Shown piece after piece: positions 19,552 to 25,726 of a DNA stretch of 39,034 nucleotides. The notes beneath the pieces were generated by a model. That model was not told the origin of the DNA and searched no databases. It worked only from the letters and a program-made list of their open reading frames with translations. Position 1 is the first letter of the stretch. Each line of letters starts with the position of its first letter. The translations under genes were made by a program, and so were the position numbers. The DNA is from Rubellimicrobium arenae (lineage in GTDB: Bacteria; Pseudomonadota; Alphaproteobacteria; Rhodobacterales; Rhodobacteraceae): contig NZ_JAFMST010000020.1 of the NCBI RefSeq assembly GCF_017916275.1, forward strand, positions 1 through 39,034, in the 5' to 3' direction.

Positions 19552-20090
19552 GTCCATGCCACGGCCACGACACGGCAGGCTCAGGGACATCCTGCCGACA
19601 AGAACGGGCCTTTGCTAAAGCGTTGACTGGCGTCTCTCGGGGCGCGGCCCAATTCCCGATGAGGTCGCCAGAGGTCCTGCGCGGCCGCATCGGGCCCCGG
19701 CTTGACCTGACGAGCAGATCGCCATCCGGGCTGGCCATCGCTCACCTCGGTCCTCCCGACCGAGATCCCGGTGCTTGTTCCTTCCCTCGCTGACGGCGTG
19801 CTCCTTCGGGCACCTCGGTCCCGAGGCATTTGCAGGTCGCGTCACTGACCGGACCGCACGGCCGAAACGCCCCAAGCATCCATTCAGTCATTCGCGCGTC
19901 GGCCTGAGCCGCATCGGCCAGGAGCCCAGATCCGCTCCAGCACGAGATTGCGGCACTGAATTGAACTCATCTTCGAAACGAACTTAGTCGAATGCGATAA
20001 CATCGTGAGCGATTTACAACGCGTTAATCCTCACCTAGATGATCGCGCAAGATAAGATCGCTCATGAATATTCAGTCAGGAAATACGCCA
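19552..20090. other. Gene-free region between ohrR and the second lectin gene
   Basis: No credible gene. The first part holds the ohrR hairpin. The last 130 bases are AT-richer than their surroundings and probably contain the lectin-gene promoter; I see TTGAAC near 19961 as one possible -35 box. Confidence 0.45.
19573..19597 (+). terminator. Hairpin after ohrR
   Basis: A perfect 7-bp stem (CGGCAGG at 19573-19579, CCTGCCG at 19591-19597) has an 11-base loop and begins 21 bases past the stop codon. No U-run follows. Confidence 0.5.
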
Positions 20091-20765
20091 ATGCTTCGCA
20101 AGTTCCGTTCCGCCGTCATGACCCGCACCTCGGATGTGGCGCCTGCCCGTCGCCTTGTCGGCGCTCTCGCAAGCCTCGGCTCCAGCCTGATGGCTCTCGG
20201 CGTCCTGACGTTCGGTGTGTCGACTCCGGTCTCGGCGACGCCTGTGCAGTGGGACGGCAACGGTCATTGGTACGAACTGGTCACCACCAACGCCCAAGGC
20301 ACGTCGGCCGGAGCCATCGCGGCAGCGGCGGGGCACAGCTACAACGGCATGAACGGCTACCTCGTGACCATCACCTCCCAAGCGGAGCAGGTCTTTCTTG
20401 ATGGCCAGGTGAACCCCTGGGCCTTCGTGGCCTGGCTCGGCGGATCGGATGAGCAGGCCGAAGGCGACTGGCGTTGGCTGACCGGACCAGAAAAGGGCCA
20501 GGCCTTGGACTGGACCAACTGGGGCTGGAACGAACCCAACAACCACGGCGAGGGACACCCGGAAGGAGAGGATTATATCCTGGGCTGGTGGAGCGGCGAC
20601 AAGTGGAACGACATCTACGACAACTACAGCAACTATTCGTACATCGTCGAATACAGCGCCGACAACGTGGCGGCCGTGCCGCTTCCGGCGGGTCTTCCGC
20701 TCCTTGGCGGTGGCCTGAGCGTCCTCGGCCTCCTGGCCAGGCGCCGGAAGGCGCGCCGGGCCTGA
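20091..20765 (+). CDS. Second exported C-type-lectin-like protein with VPLPA-CTERM tail
   Basis: This 224-residue paralogue of the lectin-like protein at 9943-10629 has a long charged N terminus, then the hydrophobic part of a signal peptide (about residues 28-50, ending VSA). One C-type-lectin-like domain follows (NGHWYELV, GMNGYLVTITSQAEQVFL, GDWRWLTGPEKGQ, WGWNEPNNHGEG, and a final SYIVEY). The tail is a textbook VPLPA sorting signal: AAVPLPAGLPLLGG, a hydrophobic helix, and ARRRKARRA. The EPNN segment resembles the sugar-binding loop (EPN/QPD) of true C-type lectins, so glycan binding is plausible. I prefer the ATG at 20091, which has AGGA 9 bases upstream, over the ATG at 20064, which has no ribosome site. 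Confidence 0.87.
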   Translation: MLRKFRSAVMTRTSDVAPARRLVGALASLGSSLMALGVLTFGVSTPVSATPVQWDGNGHWYELVTTNAQGTSAGAIAAAAGHSYNGMNGYLVTITSQAEQVFLDGQVNPWAFVAWLGGSDEQAEGDWRWLTGPEKGQALDWTNWGWNEPNNHGEGHPEGEDYILGWWSGDKWNDIYDNYSNYSYIVEYSADNVAAVPLPAGLPLLGGGLSVLGLLARRRKARRA

Positions 20766-21166
20766 GAGCGTAACCCTCCCGCCTGCGCCTGTCCTGACCT
20801 CGGACGGACGGGCGCGTACTTCCAGCAGGATCGAATCGGCCCGTTTGGGCCCGATCTCGGGCGGCGTTCGTCGCGCCGCCGCGCGCCGTGCGGCCTGACG
20901 CCTCTGGGGTCGACTGTCTCCCGCCGGACGCCGAGGCCGACATGGCTTCACCAACTGGGTCGAAGCCCGATGCGCGGCACGATGATCAAGCCCCGCACGG
21001 GAGCAGGCGCGACAGATCAACGAAAGGCGCGGGAATGTAGGGGCCCCGCTTCGCAGGGGCTGGGATGCCGCCCGCCCGGGTCAGGGCCAGCGGCCCGACT
21101 CTCCAGCCCATGATCCTACGGCATGGCCAGTTGGTGCGACCATGCGTGGTAACACAGGAGAGAATG
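20766..21166. other. Intergenic region between two VPLPA-protein genes
   Basis: It contains the terminator of the lectin-like gene and about 350 bases of GC-rich DNA. Near the next gene is a short inverted repeat, GCATGG (21121-21126) with CCATGC (21140-21145), which could be an operator. No gene is supported. Confidence 0.45.
20785..20815 (+). terminator. Hairpin after the second lectin-like gene
   Basis: A 10-bp stem with one G-U pair (GCGCCTGTCC at 20785-20794, GGACGGGCGC at 20806-20815) has an 11-base loop and lies 20 bases past the stop codon. Confidence 0.6.
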
Positions 21167-21838
21167 ATGAAATTGAGTATCGCCGCCGTCGCTGGCCTGC
21201 TCCTTGCAGGTTCGGTCCAGGCGGCAACCATCGCTGAAACCACCGCCCCGGTGAATGGCCGGGAATGGGTCCTTTCGGCCGATCAGTTCGACGGCGGTGC
21301 CGGCCCCTGCGGGAACGGCAAGTCCGTCGACCATCGCGACCGCTGCGCCGTCAGCCTGGAAACGATCGACAGCGGGGCGGCCCGGTACGGCCGGTACAAT
21401 CCCTTGAACTCCACCTCGGGGTTCATCGACAGCCAGGACCTTCCCCAGATCGCCTGGACCATCAGCGCGGATACCGCGTTCACGCGGCTTACGTTCGCGG
21501 TCATCGATGCCTTCGACCAAGCCTACGAGGACGGGCTGGGAGATAGCTTCTTCCAACTGACCGCCGCCGGGGCCGAAGCTGCTGATGCCGCCGGCTGGAT
21601 GCTGGACCATCGCCAGGCCAACGGCAACCTGCATTGGATCACCGTCGAGTTCGCGCAGGCCACTCAGACCGCGACCGTCGACTTCTTTACCCGCCAGAAT
21701 GACGGATTTGCCATCGCGGCCGTGCGGCTTGATGCGGACGTCGCCGCGGTGCCACTGCCCGCGACCTCCGGACTGCTGGTTGCCGGGCTCGGCAGCCTCG
21801 CCACCCTGCGGTCGCGCAGGCGGAGGCGACAGGGCTGA
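21167..21838 (+). CDS. Exported VPLPA-CTERM protein of unknown function
   Basis: This 223-residue protein has a clean signal peptide (MKLSIAAVAGLLLAGSVQA, cleaved near residue 19) and a beta-strand-rich body with two early cysteines in GAGPCGNGKSVDHRDRCAVS, possibly a disulfide. The C-terminal sorting tail reads AAVPLPATSGLLVAG, then a hydrophobic helix and RSRRRRRQG. I do not recognise the body; its strand pattern and the segment TRLTFAVIDAFDQ recall jelly-roll domains common in PEP-CTERM proteins. AGGAG lies 6 bases before the ATG at 21167; the ATG just before it (21164) is also possible. Processing by an exosortase and delivery to the outer surface or matrix is inferred from the tail. Confidence 0.85.
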   Translation: MKLSIAAVAGLLLAGSVQAATIAETTAPVNGREWVLSADQFDGGAGPCGNGKSVDHRDRCAVSLETIDSGAARYGRYNPLNSTSGFIDSQDLPQIAWTISADTAFTRLTFAVIDAFDQAYEDGLGDSFFQLTAAGAEAADAAGWMLDHRQANGNLHWITVEFAQATQTATVDFFTRQNDGFAIAAVRLDADVAAVPLPATSGLLVAGLGSLATLRSRRRRRQG

Positions 21839-22583: not shown

Positions 22584-22918
22584 GCACCAGCCGGTCCCGG
22601 TGCGCCGCATCACCCCGGACGCGGATCCTGTCGGCGCGGGCCGTCCGAAGGTCCTCGGGCGGGGATAGCCCCGACCTGCGTCGTTCCGGGGGTGTCGGCA
22701 TCCCGGCTTGGTGGTGGGAGGGCGGTGGTCGTGCGACGATACACGCGGGTTCCTCATCCCCTTCGCCACAACGCCGGCGGGCCGTGCAATCCGATATGTC
22801 GGAACATTCGTCGGCTTCACGAGGTTCATGTGTCCTGCGCACGACCGGGGACCCTGGTCGCCGCAAGCTTTGCCGCCCCACCGGTTCGGCGGGCTCTCCT
22901 GGCGGGAAGGATCGACGA
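22584..22918. other. Intergenic region upstream of the cyanophycinase gene
   Basis: About 335 bases with no credible gene, terminator with a U-run or clear promoter boxes. Confidence 0.4.
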
Positions 22919-23743
22919 ATGGTCAAGAACAAGGCCGGACTGGTCGAGGGCATCGAGGGCCGCGGCCGGCTCATCATCATCGGCGGCCACGAGGAGCACG
23001 AAGGCGAACGCCTGATCCTGCGCGAGGTCGCCCGCCATGTGAAGAACGGCCGACTTGTCCTTGCCACCATCGCATCCCACGAGCCCGAAGGGTATCTGGA
23101 GCGATATCGGGCGTCGTTCGCGGACCTCGGCGTCAACGAGGTGGTCGAACTTTATGTAGAGGACCGCCACGAAGCGATGCTGCCCGAAAAGCTTGAGGCG
23201 CTCGAGGGGGTTCATGCGGTCTTCTTCTCGGGCGGGGACCAGCTCCGCATCACGAGCCAGATCGGCGATACCCCGATCTACGAACGCATCCACGCGATCT
23301 TCGAGGCGGGCGGGCTCATCGCCGGGACATCGGCCGGCGCCTCGGCCATGGCCGACACCATGCTTGTCCGGGGCCAGAGCGCCGCTTCCTTCCGCATCGG
23401 CGATGCTCGCATGGCGCCCGGACTGGGTCTCCTGCCCAATGTCATCATCGACCAGCACTTCGCGGAGCGGGGTCGCATCGGCCGCCTGATCGGGGCCGTG
23501 TCGCAGAATCCGCGCGTGCTGGGCATCGGCATCGACGAGGATACCGCCATCGTGGTCGAGGGGCACCGGTTTCGCGTGATCGGAAGCGGGGCGGTCTATC
23601 TGGTGGACGCCTCCGAGGTGACCCACTCCAACATCGCCGAAGCCGAAACGGACGCGGCGCTGTCCATCTACGACCTGACGCTTCATGTGCTCAGCGCCGG
23701 AGATGCCTTCGACCTCGTGACCCGACGACCGGCGCCCGCCTGA
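22919..23743 (+). CDS. cphB: Cyanophycinase (peptidase family S51)
   Basis: This 274-residue serine exopeptidase belongs to the cyanophycinase branch of S51. It has the glycine-rich GRLIIIGGHEEHEGE near the N terminus, VFFSGGDQLRI, and the nucleophile Ser138 in AGTSAGASAM. IIDQHFAERGRIGRL and GIGIDEDTAIVV are also typical of cyanophycinases. It would cut the storage polymer cyanophycin (multi-L-arginyl-poly-L-aspartate) to beta-Asp-Arg dipeptides in the cytoplasm. The start ATG 22919 has GAAGGA 7 bases upstream. No cyanophycin synthetase or dipeptidase lies in the window, so the substrate may come from elsewhere in the genome or from outside, or the enzyme may act on another peptide. Confidence 0.9.
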   Translation: MVKNKAGLVEGIEGRGRLIIIGGHEEHEGERLILREVARHVKNGRLVLATIASHEPEGYLERYRASFADLGVNEVVELYVEDRHEAMLPEKLEALEGVHAVFFSGGDQLRITSQIGDTPIYERIHAIFEAGGLIAGTSAGASAMADTMLVRGQSAASFRIGDARMAPGLGLLPNVIIDQHFAERGRIGRLIGAVSQNPRVLGIGIDEDTAIVVEGHRFRVIGSGAVYLVDASEVTHSNIAEAETDAALSIYDLTLHVLSAGDAFDLVTRRPAPA

Positions 23744-23757
23744 CCAGCACGTCAGGC
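23738..23757 (+). terminator. Hairpin overlapping the cyanophycinase stop codon
   Basis: A perfect 7-bp stem (GCCTGAC at 23738-23744, GTCAGGC at 23751-23757) has a 6-base loop, and its left arm contains the stop codon itself. No U-run. Confidence 0.45.
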
Positions 23758-23907
23758 TCGGGCCCGCGTCGGCTCCGATCCGGTCCCGGACCCTTTCGCG
23801 TCCGCGCCTTGGTCCCCGTGGGGGTCAGTTGGTGGCCGCTGCCAGAGCGAGGCCGGATGTGACGGCCCGTCAGGGACCTTCCGGGGTCCATACGGGCGCC
23901 ATCTGGC

Positions 23908-24039
23908 AAGAAAAAGGCGGCAGCCCCGGGAGGAGGGGCGCCGCCCATGGAAAGGGTCGTCCAGGGAGGAGGAGAGGAGGACCCTGCCAATCAGTTTACG
24001 GCTGACCCAAAAGGGAGGAGATGGGCGCCGCTCGTTACA
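23908..24039 (-). ncRNA. Candidate CcsR/cuckoo-type sRNA with three anti-Shine-Dalgarno hairpins
   Basis: Read on the minus strand, three hairpins follow one another, and each exposes an anti-ribosome-binding sequence. Hairpin 1 (23999-24030) has stems CGGC/GCCG and CCCA/UGGG and the loop UCUCCUCCCUUU. Hairpin 2 (23962-23986) has stem CAGGG/CCCUG and the 15-base loop UCCUCCUCUCCUCCU. Hairpin 3 (23916-23945) has 6 plus 5 GC pairs with one bulged U, the loop UCCUCCC, and a following UUUUU tail, so it is an intrinsic terminator. This layout matches sRNAs of Rhodobacteraceae with CCUCCUCCC loops (CcsR, cuckoo RNAs; related alpha-proteobacterial families), which are stress-induced. Here it lies 181 bases past the nitrilase gene, not behind the usual DUF1127 gene. 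The structures are seen directly; expression is inferred. Confidence 0.72.
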
Positions 24040-24045
24040 GGGGTT

Positions 24046-24073
24046 CATCTACACTGCCGCTGCGATTGCACAA
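24046..24073 (-). promoter_or_regulatory. Candidate promoter of the sRNA
   Basis: On the minus strand TTGTGC (24068-24073) and TAGATG (24046-24051) are 16 bases apart, placing a start near 24039, just before the first hairpin. The same stretch on the plus strand also contains TTGCAC and TATTTG, so direction is not proved. Heat-shock-type sigma factors drive CcsR RNAs in Rhodobacter; whether that applies here is unknown. Confidence 0.4.
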
Positions 24074-24220
24074 TACCGCTTGGGTTGTATTTGCGCCAGG
24101 ACGCCTGCGGCAGGCCGACGCAGGGGCCAGGGCCGGTGCGCTCTGCCATGGTCGGGCAACCCGTCGGCCCAGCACGGCCCGGGCGCGACGGAGCCTGATG
24201 CCTGGGACCGTCCCGCCGGA

Positions 24221-25183
24221 TCAGCCGGTCGGCTCTTCCGAGAACCGTGCCTCCCGGGGCGAAAGCTCGTGGCCGAGCGGTACGGTCAGAGAGGCATAAA
24301 GTTCGGGACGCCGTCCACGGATCCAGCGACGGCCGGTGCAGAGGGGCAGCAGGCCCAGGTCGAGGTCCGCCACCACGAGATCGGCCTCGATCGACTGGGT
24401 TTCGGACAGGATGCGGCCATAAGGATCGAGGATCATGGCATTACCGGTCCGGACTTCGTCATCGTCCTGGCCGACGCCATTCGCGAAGAGCACGAACAGG
24501 CCGTTGTCATGAGCCCGCGCGGGCAGCCACCGCATAAGCCAGCCCCGGCCCTTGTCGCCCTGGAACTCCCGCCGCAGGGGCTCGGGGTCCTGATGACGGC
24601 GATGCCACAGCTCCGGGTCGATCGGTTTCATTCCATGCGGGCTTCGGGATGCCGTGCCGCCCGTCTGATGCGGCGCAAGAAGGATGTCGCAGCCCAGGAG
24701 CGCTGTTGCCCGCACATTCTCGATGATGTTGTTGTCGTAGCAGATCAGAACGCCGACCCTGACGCCCAGTGGCGTGTCGAAGACGGTGAAGCTGTCTCCG
24801 CTGGCGATGTGAGGGCTTTCGAAGGCGTGCAGCTTGCGATGGCAATGCCAGCGCCCGTCCGGCAGGGCGACCACGTAGGCGTTGAACAGCCGGTAGCCGT
24901 CCCGTTCGACCAGCCCGGCGCCGATCACCATGTCGAGCTCGCGCGAGAGCCGCAGGAGCCGCTGCGTGGAGGGTCCCTCCGGAACCGGTTCGGCAAGGCC
25001 CTCCCAGCCGGCGCGATCAAGGTGCCGCGCGTGCCAATAGCCGGTCAGGCACATCTCGGGAAACGCCAGGATCCTTACGCCCTTGTCCCGTGCCCGTCGC
25101 GCGAACCGTTCGACGACCAGGAAGTTCGCTTCCTTCGCGCCCGCCGCGTGCTGAAACTGCACGACGCCAGCCTTCACGATCAT
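24221..25183 (-). CDS. Nitrilase-superfamily amidohydrolase (N-carbamoylputrescine amidase-like)
   Basis: This 320-residue carbon-nitrogen hydrolase has the complete Glu-Lys-Cys triad: E43 in FPEMCLTGY, K117 in CHRKLHAFES and C148 in VLICYDNN. The family hydrolyses amides or nitriles via a cysteine thioester. The overall pattern (KAGVVQF start, Glu in the FPE motif, GVLICYD) is closest to the aliphatic amidase and N-carbamoylputrescine amidase branches, but a long insertion with RSPHGMKPIDPELWHRRH sets it apart, so I do not name the substrate. GGAG lies 7 bases before the ATG at 25183. It is divergent from the CMD-fold gene and followed by the candidate sRNA. Confidence 0.87.
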   Translation of the reverse strand: MIVKAGVVQFQHAAGAKEANFLVVERFARRARDKGVRILAFPEMCLTGYWHARHLDRAGWEGLAEPVPEGPSTQRLLRLSRELDMVIGAGLVERDGYRLFNAYVVALPDGRWHCHRKLHAFESPHIASGDSFTVFDTPLGVRVGVLICYDNNIIENVRATALLGCDILLAPHQTGGTASRSPHGMKPIDPELWHRRHQDPEPLRREFQGDKGRGWLMRWLPARAHDNGLFVLFANGVGQDDDEVRTGNAMILDPYGRILSETQSIEADLVVADLDLGLLPLCTGRRWIRGRRPELYASLTVPLGHELSPREARFSEEPTG

Positions 25184-25387
25184 GGACCTGCTCCCGTGGG
25201 TTCTGTCCCGGTGGATCCTAGACCCGGTTCAAGGCCAGCGCAGCCCCGATGCGGCCAGGCGGTCCATGGAGCCGGGCAGCCCCGGCAACCGCCCGTCGAA
25301 ACATAATCAGGAACCTGGGGCAGGGGGCCTCCGTTGCACGGGCAGTCCTGGCCGGTCCCATGCCGGCGCCTGAGCACCGGAGGGCCC

Positions 25388-25726
25388 ATGGCCACCGCTC
25401 CTGACCAGCTTCCTTCGGGGGCCGGCGAAATCGCGCGAACCTACCCCGATGTCTGGGCGGCCTATGCCGCCTTGGGGAAGGCCTGCTCCGAGGCCGGTCC
25501 GTTGGACCGGCGCACCGCGCGGTTGGTCAAGCTGGCCTTGGCCATAGGAGCTCTTTCCGAAGGGGCCGTTCATTCCCACACCCGGCGCGGGTTGGCCGAC
25601 GGGCTTTCAGCCGCAGAACTGCGGCATGTGGCTCTCCTGGCGATACCGACGCTCGGCCTGCCTCAGGCCGTGAAAGGCCTGACATGGATCGAGGACATCA
25701 CCGACAGGGCTCCGGAACGGGGCTGA
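25388..25726 (+). CDS. Carboxymuconolactone decarboxylase-fold (AhpD-like) protein
   Basis: This 112-residue all-helical protein of the CMD/AhpD fold shows YAALGKACSEAGPLDRRTARLVKLALAIG, split here as helices, then EGAVHSHTRRGLADGLSAAEL. In redox-active AhpD proteins this segment contains a Cys-x-x-Cys pair; here both cysteines are absent and only the His pattern (HSH) remains. It is therefore unlikely to be a peroxidase and is closer to the non-redox, gamma-carboxymuconolactone-decarboxylase-like members of unknown activity. GGAGG lies 4 bases before the ATG at 25388, which is preferred over earlier in-frame starts. It is followed by recX after 44 bases. Confidence 0.83.
   Translation: MATAPDQLPSGAGEIARTYPDVWAAYAALGKACSEAGPLDRRTARLVKLALAIGALSEGAVHSHTRRGLADGLSAAELRHVALLAIPTLGLPQAVKGLTWIEDITDRAPERG

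Follow-up and report, generated by a model that had tools for sequence, protein, structure and literature searches.

The stretch of DNA analyzed here (the window; 39,034 nt on contig C12 of the 4.55 Mb genome of Rubellimicrobium arenae, the source genome) carries a putative small RNA gene on its minus strand, between a peptidase and a nitrilase-family gene. The features of the locus are the following:

22784..23743, plus strand: peptidase S51 family gene, convergent with the RNA (family match)
23911..24040, minus strand: probable stand-alone cuckoo/alpha-r14-like sRNA gene, about 130 nt (R1 model, ar14, fold)
23911..23946, minus strand: hairpin 3 with CUCCUCCC in its loop (23935-23928), intrinsic terminator with U5 (fold; z -3.35)
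23953..23985, minus strand: hairpin 2 with CUCCUCCUCCC in its loop (23974-23964) (fold; z -1.14 alone)
23998..24031, minus strand: hairpin 1 with CUCCUCCC in its loop (24020-24013) (fold; z -2.38)
24046..24051, minus strand: TAGATG, weak -10 candidate at spacing 16 (ranks last of 43 promoters by -10 region score)
24060..24073, minus strand: TTGTGCAATCGCAG, conserved -35 region box common to the promoters of relatives (promoter comparison)
24087..24101, minus strand: position of the VtlR/LsrB-like box in DUF1127 arrays, unrecognisable in the window copy (motif scoring)
24221..25183, minus strand: nitrilase-family gene (CN_hydrolase), upstream of the RNA and co-directional (family match)

The 5' end of the RNA (24040) was inferred from promoter spacing. 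On the minus strand, CUCCUCC starts at 24020, 23974, and 23935, hairpin 3 spans 23946-23915, and its U5 tail 23915-23911. The peptidase S51 gene (22784..23743) presumably encodes a cyanophycinase-like enzyme. Elsewhere in the window, two adjoining reading frames were found at 20064-21838, one with a C-type lectin domain; we take the tails of both to be VPLPA-type sorting tails.

An earlier note on this DNA had described three minus-strand hairpins with CUCCUCC loops, the third a terminator followed by U5, and both descriptions were borne out. The triple anti-Shine-Dalgarno (anti-SD) motif occurred once in the window and in none of 100 dinucleotide shuffles of it. The 132-nt RNA 24036-23905 folded with -55.5 kcal/mol, where shuffles averaged -42.9 (z -3.78; 0/200 as good), while the full interval of the earlier note (24073-23908) was less striking (z -2.17; 5/200 shuffles as good). 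Taken singly, hairpin 3 was strong, hairpin 1 moderate, and hairpin 2 weak. The inner stem of hairpin 1 is slipped in the window copy; it shows mismatches in the covariance model row, yet an inner stem of five pairs of its own folds. Hairpin 3 was the sole terminator-like site in 23700-25400, where shuffles averaged 0.6. As the plus strand of 23908-24036 folded well too (z -2.58; 3/200), the strand is not assignable from folding energy alone.

At the Rfam gathering cut-offs, a scan of the window returned tRNA only and no sRNA family. The best match to the RNA was ar14 (RF02344) with 36.6 bits (E 3.1e-5; E 6.1e-5 in a genome-wide search), below its gathering cut-off of 58.8, and CcsR1 (RF02791), with its cut-off at 65.3, gave 17 bits. 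The covariance-model search proposed in the earlier note reached the gathering cut-off of neither family. Among 20 loci of relatives, a single ar14 match (L017) was obtained at the gathering cut-off; across 37 genomes, ar14 matched at E 0.01 in 22 and reached the cut-off in three. The architecture is that of ar14, with three hairpins, an anti-SD loop in each, and the third as terminator. It is also that of cuckoo RNAs in the wide sense, in which hairpins stand in tandem, stems vary, loops of the CCUCCUCCC type are conserved, and homology links them to the hairpins of DUF1127 arrays. A CIN1/CcaF1-CcsR operon was not found at the locus: a CN_hydrolase gene lies upstream, and none of the eight DUF1127 matches of the genome is on C12. 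That three loops are unusual, as had been claimed, did not hold, since this is the normal alpha-r14 design and NfeR1 has three according to the accessible part of its description (PMC10746234).

A covariance model, R1, was generated from ten Rubellimicrobium stand-alone copies, window copy included. It matched the window copy, one of its ten training rows, at 24040-23903 with 102.4 bits, and all eight Rubellimicrobium genomes at E 0.01 or better. The source genome contains a second stand-alone copy (C33:399067-399197). It also has an array behind a DUF1127 gene (C33:94.5-95.1 kb), with seven such hairpins by count; the last three hairpins of this array match R1 with 93.1 bits. Across the eight Rubellimicrobium arrays, the corresponding hairpins scored 84-120 bits in six, the remaining two giving 27.8 and 37.4. 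Three-hairpin stand-alone copies were present in five of the eight genomes, namely the source genome (2), R. rubrum (3), R. aerolatum (4), R. mesophilum (1), and R. roseum (1), whereas the R1 matches of the remaining three lay inside arrays. Other Rhodobacteraceae have stand-alone copies too. The remark that a nitrilase gene takes the place of DUF1127 is thus right in that the RNA does not lie beside DUF1127, but loses its novelty. Given this kinship and a shared promoter type, the stand-alone gene looks like the array promoter joined to the last three array hairpins, without DUF1127.

In a tree of the copies, the window copy sat on a long branch and joined the copy of R. roseum (support 0.68) rather than the nitrilase-adjacent one of R. 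mesophilum. Some further loci were observed in passing. At about C11:212644-212751 of the source genome (L094), an ar14-like match of 36.4 bits has two anti-SD hairpins. A contig filed under Martelella mediterranea, of a Rhizobiales genus, carries a stand-alone cuckoo gene close to those of marine Rhodobacteraceae (L121), possibly by transfer or contamination. In R. aerolatum, two stand-alone copies (L083 and L096) adjoin two similar genes, the product of which, we assume, resembles an ArdC-type antirestriction protein; with such neighbours, cuckoo copies may travel with mobile DNA.

Taken together, we regard the feature, with a probability of roughly 0.7, as a divergent stand-alone paralogue of the cuckoo (CcsR/alpha-r14/NfeR1-like) RNAs in a Rubellimicrobium genome, in line with the divergent CcsR-like RNA proposed earlier. 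It resembles alpha-r14/NfeR1 of Sinorhizobium meliloti, described in the parts of the literature available as stand-alone, about 115-130 nt long, and made of three hairpins with the anti-SD motif. It differs in scoring below the ar14 cut-off, in its Rhodobacteraceae host, and in that the TGC-N6/7-GCA box was not found. With CcsR1-4 of Rhodobacter sphaeroides and the DUF1127-cuckoo (CIN1) operons it has the anti-SD loops and the TTGTGCA promoter box in common, but the window copy comes without a DUF1127 gene. A literature search returned no paper on this RNA in Rubellimicrobium among the matches listed, which is no proof of absence.

Compensatory stem changes in relatives, which the earlier note had suggested looking for, were found. 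The main alignment comprised 12 Rubellimicrobium copies, the 11 stand-alone ones and an odd copy (L170), aligned to R1. In this alignment, which leans towards the structure because it was fitted to the R1 model, 93.2% of the stem cells paired (0/500 shuffles) and 12 of 30 pairs showed double-sided changes (1/500). The covariation score was 0.269 compared to 0.165 in shuffles (0/500), and further pair types numbered 24 compared to 21.0 (30/500). Slid partners paired at 22-50% only. With six array ends added (18 rows), pairing was 92.7% and 14/30 pairs changed on both sides, each seen in 0/500 shuffles. Double-sided changes affected four of the five pairs in the outer stem of hairpin 1 and five of the eight in the helix of hairpin 2. 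The odd copy, from R. aerolatum, scored 79.5 bits and has a third loop without the anti-SD motif.

The proposed promoter TTGTGC-16-TAGATG held up in part. Its letters are present at 24073-24046 and the -35 box is conserved; TAGATG agrees with TATAAT in only 3/6 positions, and a sigma-70 scan of 23700-25400 found no promoter. For comparison, one genome per species was scanned for TTGTGCAnnnGCAG followed by two anti-SD motifs. This gave 38 stretches, 33 of which are filed as alphaproteobacterial, in Rubellimicrobium, Paracoccus, Pseudoruegeria, Roseovarius, Thalassovita, Sulfitobacter, and other genera. These 33, together with the window and the second copy of the source genome, made up 35 stand-alone copies. 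A TGC-N6/7-GCA box was found at -50 to -12 from TTGTGC in 32 of the 35 (0.8 expected after shuffling; 0/5 unrelated matches), 20 of these boxes being N7 at -36. Upstream of the -35 region, this T-N11-A, NfeR1-type box was absent from the window copy, L106, and L128; among the 11 Rubellimicrobium stand-alone copies its loss is common to the window copy and L106 only. For the NfeR1 promoter, the accessible text gives the LsrB box as TGCA-N6-GCAT (PMC10746234), and the -36 boxes match the position of this site (about -72 to -60) if TTGTGC is the -35 hexamer. A strict pattern of promoter plus anti-SD motifs matched 14 of 394 family genomes (reversed control, five genomes); judged by the matched letters, four were cuckoo-like (G000, G386, G408, G491), two unclear, and eight chance-like. 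With so few cuckoo-like genomes, stand-alone copies with the exact promoter type are patchy.

A TTGTGC-type promoter as in the stand-alone copies also precedes the DUF1127 frame in all eight Rubellimicrobium arrays. The motif of the LysR-type regulator VtlR of Brucella is given as CAATGCAGCCATGCA in the section of PMC12595884 at hand; we scored this published consensus, read on the other strand, and at least 12/15 letters had a shuffled P of 0.0008. All eight arrays (L078, L087-L092, L095) reached 12-14/15 at -28 from TTGTGC, and a second DUF1127 gene of the source genome (L039, C37:316380) reached at least 12/15 at -27. The same threshold was reached by 10 of 11 promoters of other genera, a biased set as these had been chosen by their box, and by 13 of the 35 stand-alone copies, where both orientation and place of the match varied. 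Among the 11 Rubellimicrobium stand-alone copies, two reached 12, eight scored 8-10, and the window copy scored 7, its best value in the 60 nt upstream (shuffled mean 8.1). A weak VtlR match therefore does not set the window copy apart, whereas the loss of TGC-N-GCA does. Among 43 promoters, its LysR-box region ranked 41st, with two Pseudoruegeria copies that have their box elsewhere scoring lower, and its -10 region ranked 43rd, the weakest. Judged by this comparison, the candidate promoter of the window copy is an eroded form of the one conserved among relatives, without their LysR-type box.

VtlR/LsrB is reported to activate AbcR RNAs and DUF1127 or small-protein genes (PMC7486931, PMC8844928, and PMC12595884, each available in part). 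The eight array promoters with their putative VtlR box resemble this regulon of the Rhizobiales; the window copy differs with 7/15, as do most Rubellimicrobium stand-alone copies, of which only two of 11 reach 12. The DUF1127-cuckoo operon of R. sphaeroides is described in the accessible part of PMC10253847 as driven by RpoHI/RpoHII. RF02345 (ar15/AbcR) matched 0/13 and 0/142 genomes, a result uninformative on absence because the control genomes gave no match either.

A second putative regulatory element was found among these promoters. CceR is a LacI-family regulator of central carbon genes in Rhodobacteraceae, and mutation of cceR in Paracoccus denitrificans raises the levels of Zwf, Edd, and pyruvate kinase (PMC11323563, PMC5507952; both as far as available). 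The exact LacI-type palindrome TTAGCGCTAA has five sites in the source genome (L138-L142; reversed control, one). Four of them immediately precede edd, zwf, pdhA, and pyk, pointing to control by CceR; the fifth (L077 8206-8215) overlaps the -10 region of the second stand-alone cuckoo gene of this genome. The exact palindrome overlaps or adjoins the -10 region in eight of the 11 Rubellimicrobium stand-alone copies and is present in two of four Pseudoruegeria copies (L100, L109). An 8-of-10 form occurs in seven of the eight arrays, 36-37 nt from the TTGTGC start. The neighbouring genes suggest CceR as the protein that would bind this operator; no CceR consensus sequence was found in the accessible parts of these papers. 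The window copy has no such operator, its best match being 5/10, and seems to have shed controls to which its relatives are subject. Three states are conceivable for it: silence, weak transcription, or production by nitrilase read-through.

Silence would follow if the window copy were a decaying duplicate, with its RNA body still recognisable and its promoter gone, a reading we hold possible but on the doubtful side. It would account for the VtlR-like box that scores below the shuffled mean, the lowest-ranking -10 region, the long branch, and the lack of a same-place copy in the two other genomes with a nitrilase orthologue (searched on the nitrilase side). However, a dead copy is expected to lose stems, loops, and terminator early; here all are intact and the changes keep pairing, including those in the shifted inner stem of hairpin 1.

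A 3'-UTR origin, in which transcription reading through the nitrilase gene ends at hairpin 3 and RNase E excises the RNA, appears unlikely. The RNA lies 185 nt downstream on the nitrilase strand, neither a sigma-70 match nor a terminator-like site was found between the nitrilase stop and the RNA, hairpin 3 is the only terminator-like site nearby, and the RNA's own promoter is weak. There is also precedent in CcsR, which is cut from the ccaF1 transcript by RNase E according to the available portions of PMC10253847 and PMC8307010. The retained -35 box speaks against this origin, as does the inconstant pairing of nitrilase and cuckoo genes. The nitrilase orthologue is present in three of eight Rubellimicrobium genomes; the cuckoo copy lies downstream of it in the window, directly upstream in R. 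mesophilum (L084 7418-7558, the reverse of the window order), and none adjoins it in R. roseum. As order and presence differ across these three genomes, the nitrilase as a conserved partner was dropped.

Finally, a further reading takes the plus-strand GGAGGAG repeats for the ribosome-binding sites of a small gene, with the hairpins as a by-product; in that case the earlier note expected lost stems and kept plus-strand sites. This reading is very improbable and was rejected. An ATG 10 nt behind GGAGG does open an 83-codon frame in the window, and the R. roseum copy has a frame of 53 codons from an ATG at the same place, but a matching ATG occurs in only two of the 11 copies examined, two have no start behind any GGAGG, four have 3-codon frames only, and no start and frame are common to all. 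Covariation and the direction of the terminator also point to the minus strand.

For a stand-alone cuckoo paralogue, the known relatives suggest a mode of action. An anti-SD mechanism is described for them in the accessible parts of PMC10746234 and PMC8307010. The three anti-SD loops of NfeR1 are reported to be redundant on the leaders of transporter genes and to target ntrB as well (PMC10746234, PMC8844928; partial texts). If transcribed, whether from its own weak promoter or through nitrilase read-through, the window RNA would pair in trans through its loops with GGGAGGAG ribosome-binding sites and block translation, its three loops acting redundantly as in the published excerpts on NfeR1. 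Its targets would probably be transport binding proteins and genes of glutathione-dependent formaldehyde oxidation.

In the source genome, GGGAGGAG-N4-9-ATG has 41 sites (reversed pattern, 6), and frames were scanned at 29 of them. Six encode transport substrate-binding proteins (L186, L190, L196, L205, L216, L217); further frames encode an ABC-type permease, a GFA-family protein, and an S-formylglutathione hydrolase. If such genes make up 2-5% of all, an assumed background, six binding proteins at 41 sites correspond to P 0.0002-0.016. A control leader set gave 0/19 sites (15 frames scanned) and is too small to prove enrichment. Four of the sites lie within 5.7 kb of contig C15 (L213, C15:11000-20320; P 0.0009 under uniform random placement), at the GFA-family gene (gfa), fghA, a gene for a 214-aa protein that matched no family, and a frame truncated at the contig end. 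This last frame, also without family match, resembles the beginning of a class III alcohol dehydrogenase. We regard the gfa and fghA sites as candidate cuckoo targets in formaldehyde oxidation. The list was derived from the seed alone and would hold equally for all cuckoo RNAs of the cell.

By itself, the window copy adds only modestly to an RNA family already known. A wider scenario, which we consider improbable as a whole, is that it escaped the regulon of its relatives, lacking their VtlR-like box and CceR-like operator, and is now part of the 3' UTR of the nitrilase mRNA, so that anti-SD silencing of transporters and of formaldehyde oxidation would be tied to nitrile or amide use. The family left behind would then form a newly seen regulon, in which a LysR-type (VtlR) box and a LacI-type (CceR-like) operator unite the DUF1127-cuckoo operons with some of the stand-alone cuckoo genes of Rhodobacteraceae. 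The apparent wiring of these operons to both VtlR and CceR is the more interesting lead. It raises a testable question: are these operons, in Rhodobacteraceae, members of the VtlR/LsrB regulon with an additional link to central carbon metabolism? If so, plant symbionts, animal-associated bacteria, and free-living bacteria would all have one sRNA family linked to a regulator of the same type. The promoters, ranging from intact to eroded, also offer a natural series for studying how sRNA copies leave a regulon.
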